DNA of 13,976 nucleotides, taken from NCBI GenBank assembly GCA_031271365.1, contig JAISVV010000043.1:1-13976 (forward strand). Direction: 5' to 3'. Below the pieces are notes generated by a model that was not told the origin of the DNA, searched no databases, and saw nothing but the letters and a program-made list of their open reading frames with translations. Positions 3,325 through 13,976 of the stretch are shown piece by piece; the first letter of the stretch is position 1; every line of letters begins with the position of its first letter. Made by a program: the position numbers and the translations under genes. The DNA comes from Elusimicrobiota bacterium (lineage in GTDB: Bacteria; Elusimicrobiota; Elusimicrobia; Elusimicrobiales; Elusimicrobiaceae).

Positions 3325-4275
3325 ATGAGCAATAAAAAAATAGCAGTGTTTTTTTTAACGCTTGTTTTTGCCGCCGGCGTTTGTTTTGCGCAGGCTAAAA
3401 AAACAACTAAGGCCGCAACGCCCAAGAATGTACCGGTAACGGTTATCGTGATGAATGACAGTACATTCGGCGGGCCGGACGCAAGCCTTAACCAGGGGTT
3501 GGAAAACTTTTTAGGCGTACCGCTTGAGTTTACCTATATCACCAGAGCAGACGCTTTAAAAGACCCTAAATACTCCGGCTTTAATCTGGATTATATGCCG
3601 CTGTATCTTTTAAGCCGCAACGCCGTCTCTAACGAAAAGTTCGGCGAGCATATTTCCTCCGGCTACTTACCCGCTACGGAAGATTTTATCGTCTTTGAAA
3701 AACAAACCAGGCAGGGCGTTTACGCCGGCATGGAAAAAAAGCCCAATCTTATAGAGCTTTTTGTAATGTCGCAATGCCCTTACGGCGCTATGGCCGAAGG
3801 CAAAATTATAGACGCTCAGAAACTTGGCGTTATCCCCGACAATATTAAGATTGACGTAAGGTATATAGCCAGCCCCGGCAGGACGGAGGGCGAGTTTTCC
3901 AGCCTGCACGGCTCGGCCGAGTGGGAGGAAGACGTAAGGCAGCTTATCATAAAAGATAAATACCCGAATAAATTTTGGAAATATCTTGAGATAAGAAATA
4001 AAGATTATCAAAGCAGCCGCTGGGACATTGCCGCCGAAGAAGCCGGCATTAACCCCAACATCTTCCGCAAAAATTGGAAGCGCGGCGTTGAACTGCTTAA
4101 AAAAGATATAGAATACGGCGAGAAACTTGGGGTAAGCGCGTCGCCCACGGTTATCTGGGAAGGCCAGGTGGTGACGGATTTAAACAGCCTCTCTTCTCTG
4201 CCGGGCCTCGAGGGTTTTAGCAGGGTTACCGGCGCCGCCGCACAGGCTGCCGCCGCGCCCGCAGCGCAATGCTAG
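3325..4275 (+). CDS. Secreted thioredoxin-fold (DsbA/GILT-like) protein with CPYG motif
   Basis: This 316-aa protein has a ribosome binding site AAGGAGA at 3314-3320. The signal peptide covers residues 1-22 (LTLVFAAGVCFAQ); Cys20 is not in a proper lipobox, so type I cleavage is likely. The N-terminal half (about 35-130) is an unrecognised alpha/beta domain. The second half reads as a DsbA-like thioredoxin fold: beta strand and active-site loop LIELFVMSQCPYG (Cys151), a helical insertion (about 195-265), and the cis-proline loop SASPTVIWEG (Pro274). The motif is CPYG instead of CxxC, so only one cysteine is in the active loop. The only other cysteine in the mature protein is the very last residue, Cys316, after an Ala-rich tail. 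A periplasmic thiol role (isomerase, reductase or a non-catalytic chaperone) is inferred. Cysteine-containing pilus proteins encoded downstream are possible clients. It is the last gene before a terminator. Confidence 0.75.
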   Translation: MSNKKIAVFFLTLVFAAGVCFAQAKKTTKAATPKNVPVTVIVMNDSTFGGPDASLNQGLENFLGVPLEFTYITRADALKDPKYSGFNLDYMPLYLLSRNAVSNEKFGEHISSGYLPATEDFIVFEKQTRQGVYAGMEKKPNLIELFVMSQCPYGAMAEGKIIDAQKLGVIPDNIKIDVRYIASPGRTEGEFSSLHGSAEWEEDVRQLIIKDKYPNKFWKYLEIRNKDYQSSRWDIAAEEAGINPNIFRKNWKRGVELLKKDIEYGEKLGVSASPTVIWEGQVVTDLNSLSSLPGLEGFSRVTGAAAQAAAAPAAQC

Positions 4276-4356: not shown

Positions 4357-6186
4357 ATGAAAAAAGGCCGTTTGTTTTATACAATTTTTTTGATAATACT
4401 CCTTTGCGCTTTTGCGCCAATGGCGCTTTTGGCGTACTTTGCCTTTGGCTTAAATAAAAGCGCGCTTAAAGCCGCTTTTGACGAAAGCGCGCTGCGCTAT
4501 AACGGCCGCGTAAACGCGCAGATAAACGGTTTTATAGATAAAAACAAAACGCGGACGGAAACTTTTTTGGCCATGGCTTTCCCGTCCGGCCGCTTTGAGC
4601 CGCTGCCCGGCAGCGAGAGTATTTATAATTTTGTTTCCAACACGCCGGATATTGCCGGCCTGACTTTTTTTGGCCCCAACGGCGCGGTGACGGCGTATTT
4701 CGGGGCGAGGGCGTCCGTCTCGCAGGAAGGCGCGGCCCAGCTGCTGCAAAAAACTATTTTAGGGCGTCAGATAAACATAGGCGCTTTGCGCCGCAACCCC
4801 GCAAGAAAACAGCTTTACACAACCATCGCCTACCCTATGCAGGAGGGCGCGCTGCTGGCGGAATACGATATGCAGCCCCTGGAGGCCGCCCTTGAAAACG
4901 CCAGGATAGAAGGCGCGCTTACTTTACTTTTTTCCGGCGATAATTTTTTAATATATTCCTCTACCGACGCTTTGGCCCACGGCGCTACCGACGCCTACGC
5001 CGATAAAATGGCCCAGCTTGCCCCTTTGGCCGTTGCGGGCAAAGCCGCCGCGTTTCAAACAAAAGACTATATAGGCTTTTTAAGCATTAACCCCGCAACG
5101 GGCTGGTTTGTTTACACGCAGCGGCCTTACTCCGTATTAAACGGCGTTATGGCCGCCGGGGTTAAAGGCTCGCTTTTTAAGCTCGGGTTTATTTTAGTTT
5201 GCGCGTTTTTGCTGGCGTTTTTATTGGCGGCTGCGCTATCGGGTATGCTGACGCGGCCTTTGGCGGCTATGACAACCTCGGTAAAACTGATAGAGCGGGG
5301 GGAAACCCAAAACATGCCGCCGCTGCCTTTGCCCAATAACGAGATAGGCGCGCTTTCTATGGCTTTTGCAAAGATGCTTGACTCCATAAAAATAAAAATA
5401 GACGATATGGCCCAGGACAGGCATGATTTGGAAGAGCTTAACCAATCCTTAGAAGTGCGCGTGGGCAGCCGCACAAAAGAGCTTAGAACCGCTTTAAACG
5501 AAATGATTAAAAAAGAAAGGCTGGCCGCGATAGGGCAGATGGCCTCGATAGTCAGCCACGAAATTAAAAACCCGCTGGCCGTTATGGCAAACGCGGTTTA
5601 TCTTATAAAAGCGCGCCTGGGCGCAAATGCCGACGTAAAAACGCTTAAAAATATCTCCGTCATAGAAGAGGAAATTAAGCAGGCCAACGGGATTATAGAG
5701 GAAATTTTGGGGTTTGCCCGCTCGCGCGAGCAGATTTTGACGCTGGTGGATTTAAACGCTTATATAAAAGAGATTTTATCCTCCTATCCCGTGCCGAAAA
5801 ATATACATTTGACAACCCAGTACCAGCAAGGCGCTCTGCCTGTTAAAATAGATACCGAGGAAATGAAGCAGGCCGTGCGCAATATTATCGGCAACGCCCT
5901 GGAAGTTATGCCGCAGGGCGGGCAGCTTATTATAAAAACGCGCCGCGAAGGCATAAAGGCGCTGCTGAGCATAAGAGATACCGGCCCCGGCATACCCAAA
6001 GACGTGCAGGACAAAATATTTACGCCCTTTTTTACCACTAAAGCGCGCGGCACCGGCCTTGGGCTTGCCGTGGTTAAAAAAGCCGTTTCCAGAAATAACG
6101 CCGACATCGTTTTGCAAAGCGAAGCCATGAAAGGCACCAAGATGACCATAATCTTTAACTTACAAACAAACACAGAGGCGTTATGA
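4357..6186 (+). CDS. Membrane sensor histidine kinase (Cache-type sensor, HAMP, HisKA, HATPase)
   Basis: This 609-aa protein has TM1 at about 8-30, a large extracytoplasmic region at 31-270 consistent with a double-Cache sensor, TM2 at about 273-295, HAMP at about 296-350, a coiled coil at 352-388, and a HisKA H-box SHEIKNPLAV with His401. The HATPase domain shows an N-box NIIGNALEVM (Asn513), G1 DTGPGIP (541-547), F-box FTPFFTTKARG and G2 GTGLGLAV (565-572). All key residues are present, so it should autophosphorylate, and the core looks NtrB-like. The start codon has only a weak upstream purine signal (CGGA about 10 nt away) and lies right behind the terminator. The stop overlaps the next start (ATGA at 6183-6186), so translational coupling with the hybrid kinase is likely. 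It is probably the input kinase of the relay; the ligand is unknown. Confidence 0.93.
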   Translation: MKKGRLFYTIFLIILLCAFAPMALLAYFAFGLNKSALKAAFDESALRYNGRVNAQINGFIDKNKTRTETFLAMAFPSGRFEPLPGSESIYNFVSNTPDIAGLTFFGPNGAVTAYFGARASVSQEGAAQLLQKTILGRQINIGALRRNPARKQLYTTIAYPMQEGALLAEYDMQPLEAALENARIEGALTLLFSGDNFLIYSSTDALAHGATDAYADKMAQLAPLAVAGKAAAFQTKDYIGFLSINPATGWFVYTQRPYSVLNGVMAAGVKGSLFKLGFILVCAFLLAFLLAAALSGMLTRPLAAMTTSVKLIERGETQNMPPLPLPNNEIGALSMAFAKMLDSIKIKIDDMAQDRHDLEELNQSLEVRVGSRTKELRTALNEMIKKERLAAIGQMASIVSHEIKNPLAVMANAVYLIKARLGANADVKTLKNISVIEEEIKQANGIIEEILGFARSREQILTLVDLNAYIKEILSSYPVPKNIHLTTQYQQGALPVKIDTEEMKQAVRNIIGNALEVMPQGGQLIIKTRREGIKALLSIRDTGPGIPKDVQDKIFTPFFTTKARGTGLGLAVVKKAVSRNNADIVLQSEAMKGTKMTIIFNLQTNTEAL

Positions 6187-7316
6187 GCGATTTAAAAAAT
6201 GTAAAAGTGCTTGTGGTTGACGACGAAGATAATTTAAGAGAAACGCTGTGCGAACTTTTAGAAATAGAAGGCTACGACGTTTACCAGGCGGCCAGCGTAA
6301 AAGAGTGTCTGGAGCTTGCACGCAGCGAGTTTTTCAGCGTTATTTTAATGGATTATAACTTGGGCGACGGCACCGGCCTTGACGCGGTTAAAGAAATACG
6401 CAAATTTAATACCGAGTCGCAGATAATTATGATAACGGCCTACGCGTCTTTAAATACTGCAGTTAAGGCGATACACGAGTCGGTATACGATTTTTTAATA
6501 AAACCCGTGGACCTTGATTACTTAAAGCGCACCATAAAAATGGCGCTGGAAAAATCGCAGCTGGAGCAAAGCAACAAAGAGCTTTTGCAGCAGCTTAAAC
6601 AGAGTAATAAAAATTTAAGCGATTTAAACAATATGAAGAGCAAGTTTTTTTCTATAGTTTCGCACGATTTATCAAACTCTATGATGGCCGTTAAAATGAG
6701 CTACGACATGCTGCGCAAAACCATAGCGGCCCCGGATGAAAACCAAAAAGTAAAAATGGGCTATATGGAGCAAAGCATAGGCCAGATATTTTTGCTTACC
6801 AAAGACCTTGTGGACTGGGCCGCCATAGAAAAAGGCAAACTGCGCCTTGAAAAAGCGCCCTTTGACCTTACCGCGCTGATAAAAGCCGGCTTTGAGATTT
6901 TTAAAGAAAAAGCGAAACTTAAAAATATCACCGCCGATTTTGAGGGGAAAGAAAGCCTTATAGTGCCGGGCGACGCCAAGCGCATAAGGCAGGTTATCTC
7001 CAACATCGCCGAAAACGCTATAAGACATACGCCGCCAAATGGCAAAATAATATTTTCCGTGATGAAAAATGACGAGAAAAATGCTAAAGTATCGATAAGG
7101 GATTCCGGCGAGGGCATAGACCCGGCCCAAACGGAACATCTGTTTGAAAGCTTTTATCAGGAGGGCCAGGGCGGCAGGCTGGGGCTCGGGCTTTCCATAG
7201 CCCGCGACATTGTTTTAAACCACGGCGGCAAAATATGGGCGCAAAGCGAAGGCAAGGGCAGGGGCGCCGTATTCAGTTTTACTTTGCCCGTTTTTAATCC
7301 AAATCAGGAGATATGA
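6183..7316 (+). CDS. Cytoplasmic receiver-histidine kinase hybrid (REC-HisKA-HATPase)
   Basis: This 377-aa protein has no membrane segment. The N-terminal receiver domain (about 6-122) has the acidic pair Asp13/Asp14, the phosphoacceptor Asp57 (LMDYNLGDGTG), Thr85 and Lys107 (FLIKPVD). A coiled coil at about 122-150 leads to an H-box FFSIVSHDLSNSMMAV with His161. The HATPase domain has ISNIAENAIRHTPP (Asn274/Asn278), DSGEGID (307-313) and GGRLGLGLSIA (330-340). In the H-box the usual proline five residues after the histidine is Ser166, which is uncommon. This order (receiver first, kinase second) suggests that phosphorylation by the upstream membrane kinase tunes the activity of this kinase, which then phosphorylates the response regulator encoded next. 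ATGA overlaps on both sides show tight coupling. The family call is sure; the direction of phosphotransfer is inferred. Confidence 0.93.
   Translation: MSDLKNVKVLVVDDEDNLRETLCELLEIEGYDVYQAASVKECLELARSEFFSVILMDYNLGDGTGLDAVKEIRKFNTESQIIMITAYASLNTAVKAIHESVYDFLIKPVDLDYLKRTIKMALEKSQLEQSNKELLQQLKQSNKNLSDLNNMKSKFFSIVSHDLSNSMMAVKMSYDMLRKTIAAPDENQKVKMGYMEQSIGQIFLLTKDLVDWAAIEKGKLRLEKAPFDLTALIKAGFEIFKEKAKLKNITADFEGKESLIVPGDAKRIRQVISNIAENAIRHTPPNGKIIFSVMKNDEKNAKVSIRDSGEGIDPAQTEHLFESFYQEGQGGRLGLGLSIARDIVLNHGGKIWAQSEGKGRGAVFSFTLPVFNPNQEI
7306..7310 (+). promoter_or_regulatory. Ribosome binding site deciding the response regulator start
   Basis: AGGAG lies 8 nt before ATG 7319 and only 2 nt before the alternative ATG 7313, which favours 7319. 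Confidence 0.65.
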
Positions 7317-7318
7317 TT

Positions 7319-7981
7319 ATGGCCGTTAAAAAGAAAAATGTTAGAGTGCTTATCGCGGACGACCAAACCTTATTCAGGGAAGGCATAAAAGACGTCTTAA
7401 CCGGAGAAAAGTGGATTGAGGTAGTAGGCGAAGCCGCCGACGGCGAGGAAGCCGTCGCGCTTACCAAAAAACTTAAGCCCGAAGTGGTGCTTATGGATAT
7501 TAAACTGCCCAAACTTGACGGTATCGCCGCCACAAGGCAGATTAAAGCCGCCGTGCCGGAGGTTAATGTTTTAATGCTCTCGAGTTTTGAAGACGAAGCC
7601 CACGTAATGGAAGCCATTAAAGCCGGCGCTAACGGATATCTTTCTAAAATGCTGCCCGCGGCGGAGCTGGTTAACTCTATCCGCACATTTACCACCGAAG
7701 GCCTTATGATACCCCAGCAGCTTATGGGCAAACTTTTACAAGGCCTGCGTAAAATGGACGAAGGCGCGCCGAGCCAGGCTTCGCTTACCAAAACCGAGAT
7801 ACGGGTTTTAAATCTGTTGGGCAACGGCCTGAGCAATAAAGAACTGGCGCTGGAGCTGGGCTGCAGCGTTAAAACTATTAAAAACCATCTTAACAGCTCT
7901 TTCCATAAGCTGGACGTTACCAGCCGCACCGAAGCCGTGGTTAAAGCGATTAAGCTGGGTATAATCTCCTCGGACAGGTAA
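7319..7981 (+). CDS. NarL/LuxR-family response regulator
   Basis: This 220-aa protein combines a receiver domain (about 7-125: Asp14/Asp15, phosphoacceptor Asp60 in VVLMDIKLP, Ser88/Ser89, Lys110 in GYLSKM) with a LuxR-type helix-turn-helix (about 154-218). The DNA-binding part reads LTKTEIRVLNLLGNGLSNKE, then VKTIKNHLNSSFHKL, typical of NarL/FixJ regulators. ATG 7319 is preferred over ATG 7313 because AGGAG at 7306-7310 lies 8 nt from 7319 but only 2 nt from 7313; 7313 would give two extra residues and an ATGA overlap. It is the likely output of the kinase pair. The next genes are pilus genes, and PprB of Pseudomonas, a regulator of the same class, controls the Flp/Tad pilus, so control of the adjacent pilin genes or of the promoter at 9869 is plausible. 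Confidence 0.93.
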   Translation: MAVKKKNVRVLIADDQTLFREGIKDVLTGEKWIEVVGEAADGEEAVALTKKLKPEVVLMDIKLPKLDGIAATRQIKAAVPEVNVLMLSSFEDEAHVMEAIKAGANGYLSKMLPAAELVNSIRTFTTEGLMIPQQLMGKLLQGLRKMDEGAPSQASLTKTEIRVLNLLGNGLSNKELALELGCSVKTIKNHLNSSFHKLDVTSRTEAVVKAIKLGIISSDR

Positions 7982-8155: not shown

Positions 8156-9256
8156 ATGCTTAAAGTTTTTAATCCCGTGTTAAACAAAAGGGCGCAAATC
8201 CTGATGCCCGCGCTGCTGCTTATACCGACATTTTTGCTGGTGATATATTTATTGTTTGAAACCGCCAAACTTTCGCGCGAAAAAATACGCCATCAGTTTG
8301 CCTTAGATACCGCCGCCTTTGTGGAGCTTACCTCCGCCTCTAACTTTTTAAACGCTACGGCTTATACAAACGGCGCTTTCCCTTTTAGGTTGTTTAGGGA
8401 GAATTTTGAGGTGGAAAATAAAATTTACGAGGTAGATGAAACTGTAGAGCCGGAAGAGGGCGAACAGCCGAACAGAGAAAAAGTCAGCATCTTTGACGTC
8501 TACTACAGCGCCGGCGCTTTCCCCGGCATGTCGGACCCGATGTCAAGCCCGCGCGAAGAAGATGTTGAATGGCAGCTGCGCTACTACGGCAACAGCCGCC
8601 CCGGCTGGAATCAGGAAGAGCCCGAAATCAGGGAGGACCAAACGTACGATTTAATGTCGGCCGAGCTGGCAAAAACCCATATGGTGGGCCCGCAGCTTGA
8701 TAGTGAAGCTTTGCAGCTTTATATTTTTATGTATTTCCTTTTGCATCAAATTTACGAGAACCAAAAAGCCGTCTATCTGCGCATTGTATCCGACGGGGAG
8801 TTTTTTAGAAAAGGCTACTATCTGAACGTGGGCAATTGCTCCATGAGCGAATGCGGGCGCGAGGGCGCTTTAGAGTTTCAAAAATACGTTATGCAGACAA
8901 CGCCGGTTTTTATACGCAAAATAGGGTTGCCTTTCAAACACTATAGCGAAGAGGGCTCTTTATCCTATCGTGAAGTAACCAGAGTAGACTTAGACCTTGA
9001 GGAAGAAGACGTTTTAGACGGCCGGTTGTTTCAGTTTGCGTTCCTTACCAGGGAAACGCGCGATAAACTGCGCGAGCTTTACACCGGCATAGACATTAAC
9101 CAGCAGTTTAAGGCGCCGTCAAACTATTTTAATATCAACCTGGCGCGTTTTAACCCGCACACGCACGTGCGCGTGGCGTTGCAGTGCACCAAAGAAGCAA
9201 ATAACTGCGTGTGGCCCAACCCCACGCCAAAGTATCAGGTAAGGATATTTCCGTGA
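8156..9256 (+). CDS. TadG-like membrane-anchored pilus-associated protein
   Basis: This 366-aa protein starts 5 nt after the prepilin stop. The N-terminus has a basic patch (NPVLNKRAQ), one membrane helix at about 15-35 (ILMPALLLIPTFLLVIYLLF), then an amphipathic stretch (ETAKLSREKIRHQFALDTAA) and a long extracytoplasmic domain. That layout matches TadE/TadG-like minor pilins and Tad-associated anchors. The canonical Gly before the cleavage site and Glu5 are missing (Lys-Arg-Ala-Gln-Ile-Leu-Met), so prepilin cleavage may not occur. Four cysteines sit in two close pairs: Cys228/Cys233 and Cys344/Cys351, likely disulfides. A very acidic stretch (VDETVEPEEGEQ) is near residue 100. The last 4 nt overlap the GTG start of the next gene. 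The TadG label is by architecture and position, not strong sequence identity. Confidence 0.65.
   Translation: MLKVFNPVLNKRAQILMPALLLIPTFLLVIYLLFETAKLSREKIRHQFALDTAAFVELTSASNFLNATAYTNGAFPFRLFRENFEVENKIYEVDETVEPEEGEQPNREKVSIFDVYYSAGAFPGMSDPMSSPREEDVEWQLRYYGNSRPGWNQEEPEIREDQTYDLMSAELAKTHMVGPQLDSEALQLYIFMYFLLHQIYENQKAVYLRIVSDGEFFRKGYYLNVGNCSMSECGREGALEFQKYVMQTTPVFIRKIGLPFKHYSEEGSLSYREVTRVDLDLEEEDVLDGRLFQFAFLTRETRDKLRELYTGIDINQQFKAPSNYFNINLARFNPHTHVRVALQCTKEANNCVWPNPTPKYQVRIFP
9241..9245 (+). promoter_or_regulatory. Ribosome binding site for the TadE-like GTG start
   Basis: AAGGA lies 7 nt before GTG 9253, inside the end of the upstream gene. It supports the GTG start over ATG 9211. Confidence 0.65.
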
Positions 9257-9816
9257 ACGTATTTTTTAGACTGCCGCGCGGCAAAAAAGGCCAAGCCACC
9301 ACGGAGGTGGTTTTGCTGTTTCCGATATTTTTTATACTCACTTTGTTTATAGTTAAAATTTACGGGCTTTTGGTGCTTGTGCAAAAGGCGGAGATTGCCT
9401 CCTTCTACGCCGCAAGGCGCTGGCAGCTGGAAAGCCACCGCGCGCTGCAATATTCGCAGGGGTGGGATAAAAACTTTTTACAAAAAGATATCGCCCAGCG
9501 CGTGGAGGAATACATAGGCTTTAGAAACGCTTCCCAGCGCAAATTTTTGGCCCTGCGCCGCGTTAACCTGGATATAGAGCGCACCAACGTCTGGAACGTA
9601 GTTAAACTTACCATTAACACCTACCCGCCCAGGATACCTTTTATATGTAAGTATGATAAACGCATTGTGTGCAAATACCCTTACGGCATGGCGTGTATGC
9701 GCGGGTATAATTTTTTATGCGAGTCCGGCGGCACGATAGAAGTTACCAAAAACGTAATAAACCGCGACAGGCCCGTAGGCTTTATACTGCCAAACTCCGC
9801 GATGAAGGGGCTGTAA
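9253..9816 (+). CDS. TadE-like pseudopilin (GTG start)
   Basis: This 187-aa protein is read from GTG 9253, which overlaps the previous stop (GTGA) and has AAGGA at 9241-9245, 7 nt upstream. An in-frame ATG at 9211 would add 14 non-leader-like residues inside the upstream gene. The N-terminus MNVFFRLPRGKKG is followed by QATTEVVLLFPIFFILTLFI: cleavage after Gly13 gives Glu at mature position 5, the prepilin peptidase hallmark shared with TadE. After the helix comes a domain with four cysteines (132, 140, 148, 156) within 25 residues, suggesting two disulfides. TadE and TadF are minor pseudopilins needed for Tad pilus assembly. This is the last gene of the relay-pilus operon; no clear intrinsic terminator follows. 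Confidence 0.8.
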   Translation: MNVFFRLPRGKKGQATTEVVLLFPIFFILTLFIVKIYGLLVLVQKAEIASFYAARRWQLESHRALQYSQGWDKNFLQKDIAQRVEEYIGFRNASQRKFLALRRVNLDIERTNVWNVVKLTINTYPPRIPFICKYDKRIVCKYPYGMACMRGYNFLCESGGTIEVTKNVINRDRPVGFILPNSAMKGL

Positions 9817-9831
9817 GACGGATACCGCGCC

Positions 9832-9850
9832 ATATCGGGTTATATCGGGT
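9832..9850. repeat. Two 9-bp direct repeats at 10-bp spacing upstream of the promoter
   Basis: ATATCGGGT occurs at 9832-9840 and again at 9842-9850, one helical turn apart. The second copy runs into an inverted repeat GGGTC (9847-9851)/GACCC (9857-9861). Relative to the predicted transcription start near 9904 the copies are centred at about -68 and -58, a usual place for an activator. Candidate binding site, possibly for the response regulator encoded upstream; that link is inference. Confidence 0.5.
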
Positions 9851-9868
9851 CACGGGGACCCATGCCCC

Positions 9869-9897
9869 TTGACAAAACGCCGCGGGGGTTGTATACT
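9869..9897 (+). promoter_or_regulatory. Near-consensus sigma70 promoter
   Basis: TTGACA (9869-9874) is a perfect -35 box. After a 17-bp spacer comes TATACT (9892-9897), five of six matches to the -10 box. Transcription should start near A9904, giving a leader of about 146 nt before the first gene of the low-complexity cluster. Confidence 0.85.
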
Positions 9898-9904
9898 TAT
9901 GCTA

Positions 9905-9994
9905 GGCGCACTCTAAGCGCCACAATCGCAGCTCCATGTATGAGCGCGGCCGGTAGTAATGGCCGACGGGTCAGCAGGGGCCAAAGTTTTTTTT
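9905..9994 (+). promoter_or_regulatory. Structured 5' leader with attenuator-like alternative pairing
   Basis: Right at the predicted transcript start is hairpin H1, GGCGC (9905-9909)/GCGCC (9917-9921). H2 pairs CGCaGCTC (9927-9934) with GAGCGCG (9942-9948), 7 bp with one bulge. The GGCC at 9961-9964 can pair with GGCC at 9948-9951 (H3), or, with T9960, with GGCCA at 9979-9983 (H4). H4 is followed after AAG by eight T (9987-9994), so H3 and H4 are mutually exclusive and H4 looks terminator-like. H4 is weak (5 bp, 14-nt loop). I do not recognise a known riboswitch class in it. Confidence 0.5.
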
Positions 9995-10003
9995 ATGCCG
10001 GTG

Positions 10004-10013
10004 TTTGCGCAAA
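10004..10013. promoter_or_regulatory. Palindrome TTTGCGCAAA in the leader
   Basis: A perfect 10-bp palindrome between the T run and the first start codon. It could be a small operator; a 10-bp palindrome can also arise by chance. Confidence 0.25.
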
Positions 10014-10050
10014 ATAGTTTTAGGACGTAATTTAAAAGAGGGTTAAATTT

Positions 10051-11097
10051 ATGGCGCTTATAGTTAAAAGTTCAAAATCGGCGGCTAACGCAAGCAAGCA
10101 GGCCTATACCTGGGGGGCTTGTATACTGGTTGCCGTTTTGTTAATAACAACGGCAATCCCCATGCTTGCCGGCGGCAAAAAAAACAACCGGGATAAATAC
10201 AGGGAAACTTTCTACGACCTTGCCGCCATGCCTTTTGACAGCGACGCCGGCGAAGCGCAGCTTTTAGCCTCGGCCCAATATCAGGATATAGCAAAGACGG
10301 ATTTAATAAATACGCTTTTTTCCAAAAAAGACAAAGAAGAACGCCAGGCGCAGGACGCCGAATTGGGCCCCATGGCCCCGCCCGACGAAGAATATAAAGC
10401 CGTCGCAGACGAAAAGGCCCGCGCCGCCGCAGCGGCAAGGCAAAGGGCGGCATTATCCGCAAGGCCGGCCGGGCGCGCCGCGGCGCCTGCGGCAAGGCCT
10501 ACTACGCCGGGCAATTTGCGCTCGGGCAGCACCATCAGCGGCGGCGGCGGCACAAGTTTATCAGGCAGCATTTGGCGCGGCGACGACAAGCCCAACCCCA
10601 AAGCCGGCAGCGGGCAGGTTAGCGCGGCGCAGATAGCGGCGCGGCTTAAAGACGGCGGGCGCGCCACCGGCTTTGCCGACGCTTACGCCCAAACCATGGC
10701 CGCGGGCCGGGCTAAAGATTTAGAGGGCGCCGCCGGCGGCGCGGTGGACGCTTTCCAAGGCGGCAAGGACGGCAAGGAAGCCGCCCCGCTTGAAACCGCG
10801 CTGAAAGGCGACGCCTTGGCCCTTGGCGAAGAAGGCCTGGGGGAAGAAGGCGTAGCCGGTCTGGACGACCTTTCCAAAGCCGCAGACAGTTTGGCTGATA
10901 AGGCTGATGATAAGGTGAATGATACAAATAGGGACATAGATAATAAGGTGGATCAATGGAATATTTGGCGTTATATATTGGAGAAAGGCGTTGATATGCT
11001 TATGGGTGCTGCCGGTAAATTAATAACCGGTGACGCAGGATGGTTTAATAAAGAAAGTGATAGTAGCGGTGGTAGCGGCGGCGGTTCTGGAGGTTAA
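10051..11097 (+). CDS. Unrecognised membrane-anchored low-complexity protein (cluster gene 1)
   Basis: I do not recognise a family for this 348-aa protein. GAGGG lies 8 nt before the ATG. Layout: a short basic start, one membrane helix at about 18-40 (CILVAVLLITTAIPMLAGG), then GGKKNNRDKY, a partly ordered stretch (50-100: RETFYDLAAM, then IAKTDLINTLFSKK), and an Ala/Arg/Pro-rich region (120-155). A Gly/Ser-rich region (157-190) and an Ala/Gly/Asp/Leu region (190-270) follow, and then a charged stretch (272-300) likely to form a coiled coil. A possible amphipathic helix at 303-325 contains IWRYILEKGVDMLM, and the Gly/Ser tail ends the protein. A type II orientation with most of it outside the cytoplasm is likely. 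From about nt 10888 to the end codon choice changes (GAT and AAT replace GAC and AAC, GC falls), hinting at a different origin of the last 70 residues. It is first behind the strong promoter. Confidence 0.75.
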   Translation: MALIVKSSKSAANASKQAYTWGACILVAVLLITTAIPMLAGGKKNNRDKYRETFYDLAAMPFDSDAGEAQLLASAQYQDIAKTDLINTLFSKKDKEERQAQDAELGPMAPPDEEYKAVADEKARAAAAARQRAALSARPAGRAAAPAARPTTPGNLRSGSTISGGGGTSLSGSIWRGDDKPNPKAGSGQVSAAQIAARLKDGGRATGFADAYAQTMAAGRAKDLEGAAGGAVDAFQGGKDGKEAAPLETALKGDALALGEEGLGEEGVAGLDDLSKAADSLADKADDKVNDTNRDIDNKVDQWNIWRYILEKGVDMLMGAAGKLITGDAGWFNKESDSSGGSGGGSGG

Positions 11098-11120
11098 GAC
11101 TAAATTTGAAAATTTAAGTC
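11098..11120 (+). other. Intercistronic hairpin without T tract
   Basis: GACT plus AAATT pairs with AATTT plus AGTC around a TGAA loop, 9 bp with one bulged A. It starts right after the stop codon of cluster gene 1. No T run follows, so it is more likely an mRNA stability or processing element than a terminator. It is AT-rich and could be chance. Confidence 0.3.
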
Positions 11121-11143
11121 CCATTCAGTAAAAGGAGTTAGTT

Positions 11144-12694
11144 ATGAAAACAATACTTAATAAAATCGGCGCAATATCCAAGCCTGCCATTGTCGGCACT
11201 GCTTTGGGTTTGGCCACAATTGTCGTAGGTCTCGGTGTTTTAACCACTTTCACGGGCGGCAAAGGCGGCCCCAAAGGGTTTAGCGGCGCGGCGTTGGAAC
11301 AATACTCCGGCCAGCAGGGCGGGGCGGGCGTTTCCGCGCGCGACCTTGAGGCCAGGTTAGCCCTTGCCGAACAAGTCCGCCGCGGCGACGGCGGTATGGA
11401 TTCCGTTGCCAGCCTGCAGGCGGCTGCCGCAAGGGACAGAGACGCTTTAGCCTACGGCGGCTCTAACGGCGGGCGCGGCGCGGCGCAGGGCGTCGGCAGC
11501 GTTGCTGGTGCGGGGCATGAAGGCTCTTTGGATGGTATGTATGCCAGCGGGCAAGGGGTAGACGCTATCGCCGCGGGCGAAAGTTACGGCGGTGCGGGGG
11601 CGGCGGGCGCATACGCGCAAGGCGCTGCGGAGGAGCAAGGGGTCGAAGCGGTTGGTTTAGGGCAGGGTGTTATGTCCGCCGCGGCGAATGCGGGCGGCTC
11701 CGGCAATGCGCTTAGAACTTCCCAAACAATGAGCGGCAGCCAGGTAAGAAGCGGCGGCCTTGGCAGCGGCAGCACGGCTGCGGGCGGCAGCTTATATTCC
11801 GCGGGTTCTTCTAACGAGCGCGGCTCCGGCGCGGGCGTGGCTGTGCCGCAGGCCGGCGCGGCCGCTTTAAACGCGGGCGATGTAAACGCCTTTAGGGGCG
11901 GGCGCGCGGGCGCTATGGGCGGTTTTGGGGTAAGGGCTTCGGGCGACGGCAGCGGCGGCTCGGGCCAGGCGTATTCTTCCGGCTCGCTGGGCGATTTGGC
12001 CAGCGCGCACAGATATTCTTCCGGCGGTAAAGGCGCGGTATATGGCGATACTGAAAAGGGCGCGGCTTTGGCCGCCGCCGCCTTTGACGGCAGCCAGGAA
12101 AACCAGGGCATAACCATGAGCGGCGAAGGCACCGTGCAGAAACAAGCTAACCAGGCATTGCAGGATTACAGCGCCAATGATCCAAACGCCGGTAAACTGA
12201 ACGCCAGCATTGGGAAAGTTAATGACCTCGGTAATCAGATATCAGAAGAGCAGGCGTTGGGCAAAGAGTATAGAAAGAAAATTGGCTGGAAAATGGCCGG
12301 CATGGCCGGCACAGCTATTGTGGCTGCCATAGCAGTAGCTGCGCTCATGAAAGCATTTAGATCTGCTCAAGCTGTCCCTTTGGCTGGGCAATACGCCGGG
12401 CTAGGGTTTTTGATTGGGGCTATTGCTGTCGCCGCTGCGGCCATTGTGGGCTTTTTCTTATTCCTGTATGCCGGAGGCGAAGGTATTTTGGATTTGGTAA
12501 AAAAACTAGACGACATGAAGTATAGCGGGGGATCTGGCGGTCTTAAGTCCCTCGCATGGGTACTTTTTGGTTTATCTACCGCCCTAGTGGGGATATCTTT
12601 TATCGTCCCTCAGATAAAACAGGCTCTTGCTGGGATAAAAAAGACGGCTGGCAGTGTAGGAGACGGCTTCTTGAAAATGATAGGCTGGACTTAA
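11144..12694 (+). CDS. Unrecognised Gly/Ala/Ser-rich protein with four membrane helices (cluster gene 2)
   Basis: No family is recognised for this 516-aa protein. AAAGGAG at 11131-11137 lies 6 nt from the ATG. TM1 is at about 14-37 (IVGTALGLATIVVGLGVLTTF) and is followed by GGKGGPKGF, similar to the GGKK step after the helix of cluster gene 1. Residues 40-330 are an extreme Gly/Ala/Ser-rich region with recurring SSG, GGSG, GAAGA and YSSG motifs and no cysteine. A helical, Gln-rich linker (330-378) leads to three helices: about 386-403, 419-443 (GFLIGAIAVAAAAIVGFFLF) and 469-489, ending in an amphipathic stretch and GWT. The bundle resembles small VirB2/TrbC-like or holin-like hydrophobic modules only in size, so no claim is made. 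The low-complexity part may form a flexible surface or periplasmic spacer. Codon use from about 12170 on differs from the Gly-rich part. Confidence 0.75.
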   Translation: MKTILNKIGAISKPAIVGTALGLATIVVGLGVLTTFTGGKGGPKGFSGAALEQYSGQQGGAGVSARDLEARLALAEQVRRGDGGMDSVASLQAAAARDRDALAYGGSNGGRGAAQGVGSVAGAGHEGSLDGMYASGQGVDAIAAGESYGGAGAAGAYAQGAAEEQGVEAVGLGQGVMSAAANAGGSGNALRTSQTMSGSQVRSGGLGSGSTAAGGSLYSAGSSNERGSGAGVAVPQAGAAALNAGDVNAFRGGRAGAMGGFGVRASGDGSGGSGQAYSSGSLGDLASAHRYSSGGKGAVYGDTEKGAALAAAAFDGSQENQGITMSGEGTVQKQANQALQDYSANDPNAGKLNASIGKVNDLGNQISEEQALGKEYRKKIGWKMAGMAGTAIVAAIAVAALMKAFRSAQAVPLAGQYAGLGFLIGAIAVAAAAIVGFFLFLYAGGEGILDLVKKLDDMKYSGGSGGLKSLAWVLFGLSTALVGISFIVPQIKQALAGIKKTAGSVGDGFLKMIGWT

Positions 12695-12703
12695 AGGATA
12701 TTT

Positions 12704-13378
12704 ATGTACAATAACGACGGCCGTGACACATTTAACGAAAACCTTCCCCGGCAACAATCTGTTGCCGGGGGCAGGGTTGCAAAATATTTTGATATCGTTT
12801 GGGTAGGCGTTTTTGGCACCTATATTTTAATCAGTCTCATCATGATGTTGTTCGTTAAAGCCCATTCTGATAGTCTTGCCAAAGCTGCGGAGGTGCAAAA
12901 TGCGCTGTTTTTAGAAGAGTATACCCGCACAGTCATGGCAGAGGATACGCGCGCCCGCGCCACCACGCATCAGTTTACGCAGGAAAGCCGTATGGCGGGC
13001 ACGGATTACTTAAGGCAGGCCGCCGCAGGCGAGACGCAATTGCAACTTGGCGCCGCCCAGCCCGCGCAGGAGCAGCAACCGCAGGGGCAGCAGCTTGATT
13101 ACGCCGCCCAGGTAGAGGCCTACCGCAAGCAGGTTGCCGCGCAAGAAGCCGCGGACCGCGCCAAGCGGGAGCAAGCCCGCAAGCAAGAGGAGCAGCGCAA
13201 AGCCCAGCAACGCGCCGCGCAACAGCAGCAACAGGCGCAGCAGCAATCAAGGCCGCAGTTGCAGACTTCGAGCGGCGGCAGGCCGCAAAGCGCGGGTTTT
13301 AAGCCAAAGGACGTTGGCGTCGGCGCGCAGCCCGGCGGGCAAAACCGGCTGGAAACAAGAAAGGTTTTAAACAACTAA
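12704..13378 (+). CDS. Unrecognised membrane-anchored Gln/Ala-rich coiled-coil protein (cluster gene 3)
   Basis: No family is recognised for this 224-aa protein. AAGGA lies 5 nt before the ATG, and the gene starts 9 nt after gene 2. A 30-residue cytoplasmic-type start (MYNNDGRDTFNENLPRQQSV) precedes TM at about 31-51 (IVWVGVFGTYILISLIMMLF). A helical region follows (53-110), then a Gln-rich stretch (112-130), a highly charged and Gln-rich likely coiled coil (133-182: AYRKQVAAQEAADRAKREQA, then a Gln run), and a disordered tail with GGRPQSAGF and NRLETRKVLNN. The basic ending is unlike the Gly/Ser tails nearby. Single-helix anchor with extended coiled coil recalls TolA- or TonB-like spanning proteins in general plan only. 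The coding region contains a perfect hairpin at codons 15-23 (separate entry). Confidence 0.75.
   Translation: MYNNDGRDTFNENLPRQQSVAGGRVAKYFDIVWVGVFGTYILISLIMMLFVKAHSDSLAKAAEVQNALFLEEYTRTVMAEDTRARATTHQFTQESRMAGTDYLRQAAAGETQLQLGAAQPAQEQQPQGQQLDYAAQVEAYRKQVAAQEAADRAKREQARKQEEQRKAQQRAAQQQQQAQQQSRPQLQTSSGGRPQSAGFKPKDVGVGAQPGGQNRLETRKVLNN
12746..12770 (+). repeat. Perfect 11-bp inverted repeat inside the coding sequence
   Basis: CCCCGGCAACA (12746-12756) and TGTTGCCGGGG (12760-12770) are perfectly complementary around a 3-nt loop ATC. The RNA stem would be very stable and begins 42 nt after the start codon of cluster gene 3. No T run follows, so it is not a simple terminator. It could slow ribosomes, mark an mRNA cleavage or stability point, or be a DNA-binding or mobile-repeat remnant. 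Confidence 0.85.
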
Positions 13379-13397
13379 TTTTAACAGAGGCCAGATT

Positions 13398-13976
13398 ATG
13401 AAAATACTTAAAGCAACCGGGCAAATAGACTCAGGCAGAAAAACATCTTCTTTAAACAGGGGTATGTGGTCTGTCTTGGGTTTTGCCGGCCTGATGATGA
13501 TGCTTGTGTTTAATGTTATCCCTGTGGCGGTGACGCAGTCCGGCCCTGCCTTAAAGAATAATGCCGCCGCGGTATGGGATGCTTTTAACTACGGGGCCTC
13601 CGGCGCAGACGGCGGTTATTGGGCCGCTTTAACGCAGGAGCAGCTGAATGCTTCTTCCGGCGGCAGGAGCATGGATTATATACTTGCCGACGATAACCTT
13701 ACCGGCGGCCGTAACGCCGCCGCGGCGCAGGAGTGGGAAGGTTACCGCGCTTCGCAAAACCCCCGGGCCGGCGCGGGCGGCATTGACGCCCAAAGCGCAG
13801 AGGATACCGGGGTTTATAACCCTTCTTTTAAAGCCGCCGCGCATACCGCACAGCAAGAAGCGGCCGCGCAAGCCGCAAGGGCCCGGCAGGCGCAGCGCAA
13901 TGGTTTAACTTCTTCCGCCGCAGCAGGCGGAAAGGGCGGCGGCGGCAGTTCCGGCGGCAGCAGCTTTTCAGACGGC
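13398..13976 (+). CDS. Unrecognised membrane-anchored low-complexity protein (cluster gene 4), 3' truncated by window
   Basis: The frame is open from ATG 13398 to the window edge, 193 codons, so the end is outside. AGAGG at 13386-13390 lies 7 nt before the start, and the gap to gene 3 is 19 nt. It has a basic start (MKILKATGQIDSGRKTSSLN), one membrane helix at about 22-45 (MWSVLGFAGLMMMLVFNVIP) and then a moderately ordered stretch (47-115: VWDAFNYGASGADGGYWAAL, MDYILADDN). After that it becomes Ala/Gln/Arg-rich (about 140-168) and Gly/Ser-rich (175-193, with GGKGGGGSSGG). It shares the cluster pattern: short basic N-terminus, single helix, then low-complexity exported part. No family is recognised, and the C-terminal part that might identify it is missing. 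Confidence 0.75.
   Translation, partial: MKILKATGQIDSGRKTSSLNRGMWSVLGFAGLMMMLVFNVIPVAVTQSGPALKNNAAAVWDAFNYGASGADGGYWAALTQEQLNASSGGRSMDYILADDNLTGGRNAAAAQEWEGYRASQNPRAGAGGIDAQSAEDTGVYNPSFKAAAHTAQQEAAAQAARARQAQRNGLTSSAAAGGKGGGGSSGGSSFSDG

Follow-up and report, generated by a model that had tools for sequence, protein, structure and literature searches.

How Tad machines join their outer- and inner-membrane parts is an open question, and one report indicates that different lineages have evolved different ways of making this connection (PMC13170226). For Caulobacter crescentus, that report describes CpaD as an OmpA-like outer-membrane lipoprotein and CpaI as a proposed bridge. The Tad-like Kil system of Myxococcus xanthus has a short secretin, no TadG or RcpB and many associated uncharacterised genes (PMC8460266). 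Here we analyzed a four-gene operon from a draft genome of an Elusimicrobiota bacterium (assembly GCA_031271365.1, 952 kb, completeness 64.6%). The DNA studied, 13,976 nucleotides (nt) representing the entire contig C145 and referred to below as the window, carries this operon at its 3' end, directly behind a TadE-like gene. We propose, with a probability of about 0.43, that the operon's products form the inner-membrane part of an accessory complex, specific to Elusimicrobia, which would serve the Tad (type IVc) pilus machine as a periplasmic bridge and a cell-wall anchor. No description of this block was found in the literature searched, which was largely without subscription papers.

A conserved operon behind TadE

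Four genes on the forward strand follow the TadE-like gene (9211-9816, forward strand), which serves as marker of the locus, with gaps of 46, 9 and 19 nt between them and an N-terminal helix in each product; the location, the gaps and the N-terminal helices were as a sequence-only reading of this DNA had given them, including the position behind Tad-type genes. Gene 1 (10051-11097) encodes 348 amino acids (aa) with a short N-terminus, a membrane helix at residues 22-40 and a flexible exported part, and is the founder of the gene-1 family. Gene 2 (11144-12694, 516 aa) consists of an N-terminal helix (15-33), a low-complexity part, a short module described below and three C-terminal hydrophobic helices, which come in addition to the N-terminal helix noted before. 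Gene 3 (12704-13378, 224 aa) has one helix (31-49), a Gln-rich region (residues 113-190, Gln 0.33) and a coiled-coil-like tail. Gene 4 (13398-13976) is cut by the contig end, leaving an open frame of 193 aa with a helix at 26-44, and sits at the place occupied in relatives by a protein we call E. Composition agreed with the low complexity noted before, the exported parts of genes 1, 2 and 4 containing Ala at 0.18-0.23 and Gly at 0.14-0.21. The membrane topology predicted from these sequences is one of short N-terminal anchors with long flexible parts. In the AlphaFold2 model of gene 2 the predicted local distance difference test score (pLDDT) fell below 50 for the greater part of residues 104-279, in the manner of a disordered region, and the sole confidently modelled part was approximately residues 351-490 (12194-12613, forward strand; block-mean pLDDT 83-96), which forms helices including the C-terminal hydrophobic ones.

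No Pfam or NCBIfam model matched genes 1-4 above its cut-off, in keeping with the earlier failure to recognise a family; the best sub-threshold matches (Pfam E-value 0.0024 for gene 4, NCBIfam E-value 0.0027 for gene 3) carried unrelated names. Described Tad subunits were rejected as the identity of genes 1-4 on the same scans. A TrbL/VirB6 conjugation protein was likewise rejected for gene 2, Pfam TrbL having matched 3 of 36 family members at E-values up to 0.05 (best 0.01, under cut-off) and the window protein not at all. Genes 1-4 resemble TadE-type minor pilins in their single N-terminal helix and their locus but, unlike the neighbour at 9211-9816 (Pfam TadE E-value 4.2e-4, just below cut-off), gave no TadE match at E-values up to 1.

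As iterative profile growth drifts between families on low-complexity sequence, hand-picked and mostly positional sequence sets were used for the searches. The gene-1 family, from a profile of 26 relatives, was found in 84 of 90 family genomes, own genome included, and in 49 of the 51 near-complete ones. The E profile matched 81 of the 90; the window's own match being by construction, this corresponds to 80 of 89 others. With the window left out, 79 genomes had both, on one contig in 64, and in 63 of these E followed gene 1 on the same strand at a distance of 2.1-5.5 kb (exception G018; where gene 1 was duplicated the copy nearest E was entered). Single-sequence searches of 60 genomes placed gene 2 in 17, own genome included; all 17 belong to the genus, from which 18 genomes had been sampled. 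Gene 3 matched only itself. Among fetched loci gene 3 weakly matched L020 (single sequence, E-value 1.4e-4), and its place was taken by small single-helix proteins in those loci of the genus that were read and in part of the genus g6 loci (L039, L050). The 193-aa fragment of gene 4 scored -1.5 bits against a profile of 21 E proteins built without it (residues 1-60, 2.1 bits), and stops short of the module. The few named relatives of the block proteins are annotated as hypothetical, and their genomes, where named, are called 'Elusimicrobiaceae bacterium', 'Candidatus Avelusimicrobium' or 'uncultured Elusimicrobium sp.'.

That the operon has its own promoter, as noted before, was upheld at the level of sequence. 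The predicted element TTGACA-17-TATACT (9869-9897, forward strand) matches consensus at 11 of 12 positions with a 17-nt spacer, stands 153 nt before the gene-1 ATG and scores best of six promoter-like sites in 9000-13976 (2.8 in shuffles). Seventeen tad-linked loci were compared, seven of genus g1 (window included) and ten of g6. TTGACA, a 17-nt spacer and TATACT, TAGACT, TAAACT or TATAAT were present between TadE and gene 1 in 16, and in the remaining locus (G022) the motif falls within an over-long start call; when each TadE-gene-1 gap was shuffled 200 times, at least 10 of 12 matches arose by chance in 1 to 19 of the shuffles. Over the 545,602 bases of the 17 loci, scanned on both strands, the strict form occurred 22 times, always just 5' of a gene-1-family gene, and a looser pattern also matched L027:608-636, away from gene 1. 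Scanning of seven more loci located the promoter before gene 1 in six, the other being G014, where the contig ends nearby. In five genomes (L018, L020, L025, L028, L029) gene 1 is tandem-duplicated (A and B) with the promoter motif before each copy.

Because the gene-1 and gene-2 families, their order and the promoter are conserved, the set is more than a chance grouping; it is a real, conserved operon. That these are unrelated low-complexity open reading frames (ORFs), together by chance or not genes at all, is scarcely credible: low complexity can yield spurious ORFs and similarity, and the gene 4 fragment matches no relative, but families, order and promoter have been kept over dozens of genomes, which largely refutes the idea for genes 1 and 2. 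The sequence-only reading had named matches to known unrelated families, or no conservation of the set, as outcomes that would speak against it; no known-family match over cut-off was found for genes 1-4, and the gene-1 and E families are kept in relatives. Its suggestion of a recurrent four-gene block beside tad genes held for the position of gene 1 behind TadE and for the gene 1-E order, but in relatives the block extends beyond four genes, gene 4 belongs to it by position only, and in some genomes it is away from tad. The GGK step which it saw in genes 1 and 2 proved incidental (3 of 26 gene-1 relatives, 1 of 36 gene-2 relatives).

The window itself holds little of the Tad locus, namely the end of a T2SSF-type gene, a tetratricopeptide repeat (TPR) protein and the TadF- and TadE-like genes, the latter neighbour being found in 58 of 60 relatives. 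In relative G001 (L099) the neighbourhood comprises genes for a Flp-type pilin, TadE, CpaB, a 247-aa secretin, a TadZ-TadA fusion, TadB and TadC, and is a Tad/Flp (type IVc) pilus locus. KsgA and several gene names, such as Flp and the TadZ fusion, were assigned partly by eye. No CpaD/RcpB- or TadG-type match was obtained among the G001 proteins scanned. The secretin (L099:2877-3620) has its pore domain at residues 86-247 of 247; it is unusually short and retains almost no N-terminal periplasmic domains. Secretin matches were obtained in 58 of 60 family genomes, each of which has one whose open frame measures 245-285 aa (lengths which contig ends may have shortened), mostly beside a long secretin; this second, full-length secretin usually lies elsewhere in the genome. 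Short secretin and TadE shared a contig in 47 of the 56 genomes with TadE coordinates, where the two always shared a strand as well and the secretin preceded TadE by 13.4-23.0 kb.

Gene 1 and TadE were tabulated by hand for 67 family genomes (G004, G025 and genomes outside the class sample omitted). They lie on one contig in 59, and in 56 of these the two share a strand, with gene 1 beginning 140-487 nt after TadE. Beyond the family, the comparison used the protein that follows TadE in family f2 (alignment A1): 36 genomes had both A1 and TadE, on one contig in 26. In all 26 A1 lay downstream of TadE on its strand, at no more than 6 kb, and in 11 at no more than 1 kb. In the class sample of 196 genomes A1 was present in 37 and TadE in 165; many TadE-bearing genomes, chiefly of f10, gave no A1 match.

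A shared module and a giant OmpA-type protein

Genes 1, 2 and E and the A1 protein contain a helix-like stretch that has 'A-x-x-A-F-D-G', or a variant of it, at its end, and a short helical module, '..A..AFDGG', is common to genes 1, 2 and E. In the window it lies at residues 211-240 of gene 1 (10681-10770) and residues 290-319 of gene 2 (12011-12100), both on the forward strand. In a cross-family test, the matrix of one family was asked to pick the module of another as its best place; the anchor had been chosen by eye beforehand and rows within a family are not independent. The gene 2 matrix picked the module in 21 of 26 gene-1 proteins and 13 of 22 E proteins, and the gene 1 matrix in 15 of 36 gene-2 proteins and 10 of 22 E proteins. 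The E matrix did so in 11/26 (gene 1) and 9/36 (gene 2), the A1 matrix in 7/26, 8/36 and, on E, 10/22; on A1 the other matrices picked it in 2, 2 and 3 of 7. Chance expectation was 0.09-0.37 picks. Among seven proteins of other families with an N-terminal helix and 330-380 aa downstream of TadE, five scored z 4.2, 8.1, 7.5, 5.7 and 7.1, the two misses being G066 (z 1.3, cut by a contig end) and G021c (z 0.6). Four unrelated controls gave z 1.0 to 2.6. Of the other five G021 proteins one reached z 4.8 and four were at or below 1.4. G021 represents a different genus of the family, in which six low-complexity membrane-helix proteins follow TadE (L063:1481-12022), a separate expansion with one clearly module-positive member. 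Besides the f10 and f2 loci with protease genes described below, more loci showed similar N-termini by eye.

In relatives the block continues past E with a giant protein, F, followed by an exported TPR protein, G. F is approximately 1,160-1,430 aa long, with a short N-terminus, one predicted inner-membrane helix and, in genera g1 and g2, an OmpA-type domain towards the C-terminus; in the L018 protein about 900 residues separate helix from domain, and a helical insert is present in the modelled domain. For the OmpA test 13 of 24 F C-termini were used, the 11 from genus g6 being excluded because their C-terminus looks different. The profile of these 13 sequences matched OmpA-type domains with an E-value of 1.5e-6, and all 50 listed matches in the fold comparison were OmpA-type, by title or as recognised. 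Outside genus g6, F is OmpA-type by both fold and sequence. Pfam OmpA matched 5 of 10 C-terminal pieces but none over cut-off (best 21.8 versus 27.2 bits), and 3 of 24 longer pieces at E-values up to 0.05. In OmpA-type domains an Asp and an Arg bind diaminopimelate. The Arg column of F is filled in 13/13 rows, though the L048 row does not look OmpA-like there, and a 'G-x-T-D' motif is present in 3/13 (L047, L049, L052). F is predicted to bind peptidoglycan. In G006, F (L023:3161-7164), and in G005, G (L029:4282-6131), were each read as two adjoining ORFs, through draft error or a true split.

F resembles the OmpA-type proteins that anchor envelope machines in the inner membrane (MotB, TagL/TssL, ZorB) in its short N-terminus, single helix and OmpA-type domain towards the C-terminus, and differs from them in the long helix-to-domain distance and the helical insert seen in the L018 protein. 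Among the ORFs read we recognised no MotA/ExbB-type motor gene, no search having been aimed at one.

Possible role in the Tad machine

In the accessory complex we propose, genes 1, 2 and E (and 3) would assemble with one another by way of the module and the coiled-coil partner, and F would fix the assembly to peptidoglycan. The assembly would reach across the periplasm from the TadB/TadC platform to the minimal secretin. By analogy with Caulobacter, genes 1-4, E, F and G may fill the role proposed there for CpaD and CpaI. Both systems would combine an OmpA-like peptidoglycan anchor with a bridge between outer- and inner-membrane parts (PMC13170226); F, however, is inner-membrane-anchored and far from the 225-aa outer-membrane lipoprotein CpaD in length, and genes 1-4 have no recognised counterpart in Caulobacter. 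The short secretin, the lack of TadG and RcpB and the many uncharacterised genes recall the Kil system, in which FHA-domain proteins are over-represented (PMC8460266), whereas none occurred among the Pfam matches of genes 1-4.

Several observations weigh against this reading. Gene 1 is not beside TadE in 11 of the 67 tabulated genomes: the two are far apart on one contig in three (G018, G024, G134) and on different contigs in eight, some of which may be assembly breaks. They are also on different contigs in G004 and G025, and the drafts G014 and G059, with gene-1 or A1 genes, gave no TadE or TadF match. The module is short, was first spotted by eye and is weak in profile comparison, and by the matrix test it is absent from ten second-position proteins of other families (z at most 2.8). 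Gene 4 of the window is linked to E by position only, since its fragment scores below the best of 199 scored shuffles (6.2 bits). The different-looking C-terminus of genus g6 F stands outside the OmpA test, and gene order is no proof of a complex.

The main rival reading is a Tad-independent trans-envelope scaffold, tying the inner membrane to peptidoglycan for shape or integrity, with TadE adjacency mainly an ancestral order. The block is intact where tad linkage has been lost (G007, G015, G024, G002 and, in L032, G011), and G018 has retained the parts at three separate places, the first holding gene 1 and a gene-2-like ORF, another E and G, and the third F. The near-universal gene-1 family (84/90) and the architecture of F, which is that of inner-membrane-anchored OmpA-type proteins, fit as well. 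Against it, TadE proximity recurs across several families of the class, and 36 of 37 A1 genomes also have TadE. We regard this scaffold as somewhat less probable than the accessory complex.

We consider it improbable that the low-complexity proteins are instead cargo, exported to the surface with Tad help as flexible spacers or fibres. Their long Ala/Gly/Ser- and Gln-rich parts and the disorder-like stretch of gene 2 would suit such a role, and membrane-protease genes near the counterparts in three other-family loci scanned could release the proteins, but gene 2 ends in further hydrophobic helices and the peptidoglycan-binding fold of F argues for the periplasm.

Taken further, the accessory-complex reading would make the block a class-wide Elusimicrobia trans-envelope assembly, in which paralogous inner-membrane proteins with a shared helical co-assembly module and flexible spacers polymerise with a coiled-coil partner, are pinned by the giant OmpA-type protein and replace the missing periplasmic domains of the secretin. 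This fuller version is rather unlikely; if true, it would add a novel route by which the periplasmic section of a type IV filament machine can be constructed. As it stands, a whole bacterial family pairs a near-pore-only secretin with a conserved membrane-anchored set, and a near-core operon can now be described by the order of its genes, its promoter and the module that some of its proteins share. That separate, partly disordered proteins can replace secretin N-domains is a testable claim.

Other genes of the window and of related loci

The window opens with the end of the T2SSF-type gene (42-383) and the TPR protein (349-1803), and its upstream part also holds a HAMP protein. The DsbA-like protein (3325-4275; Thioredoxin_4 E-value 0.007, sub-threshold, CPYG noted by eye) shares its locus with the Cys-rich E and F of relatives and may oxidise them. 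Genes for a histidine kinase, a hybrid kinase and a LuxR-type response regulator (4357-7981) lie directly 5' of the TadF-like (8156-9256) and TadE-like genes; their order is kept in the relatives read, and they may control the block promoter. In two f10 loci (L084:1881-3512, L086:8264-9973) the gene of a compact FtsH-like AAA/M41 membrane protease separates TadE from the module protein, and an f2 locus (L057:9243-10376) has an S41 (PDZ) protease after the A1 protein.
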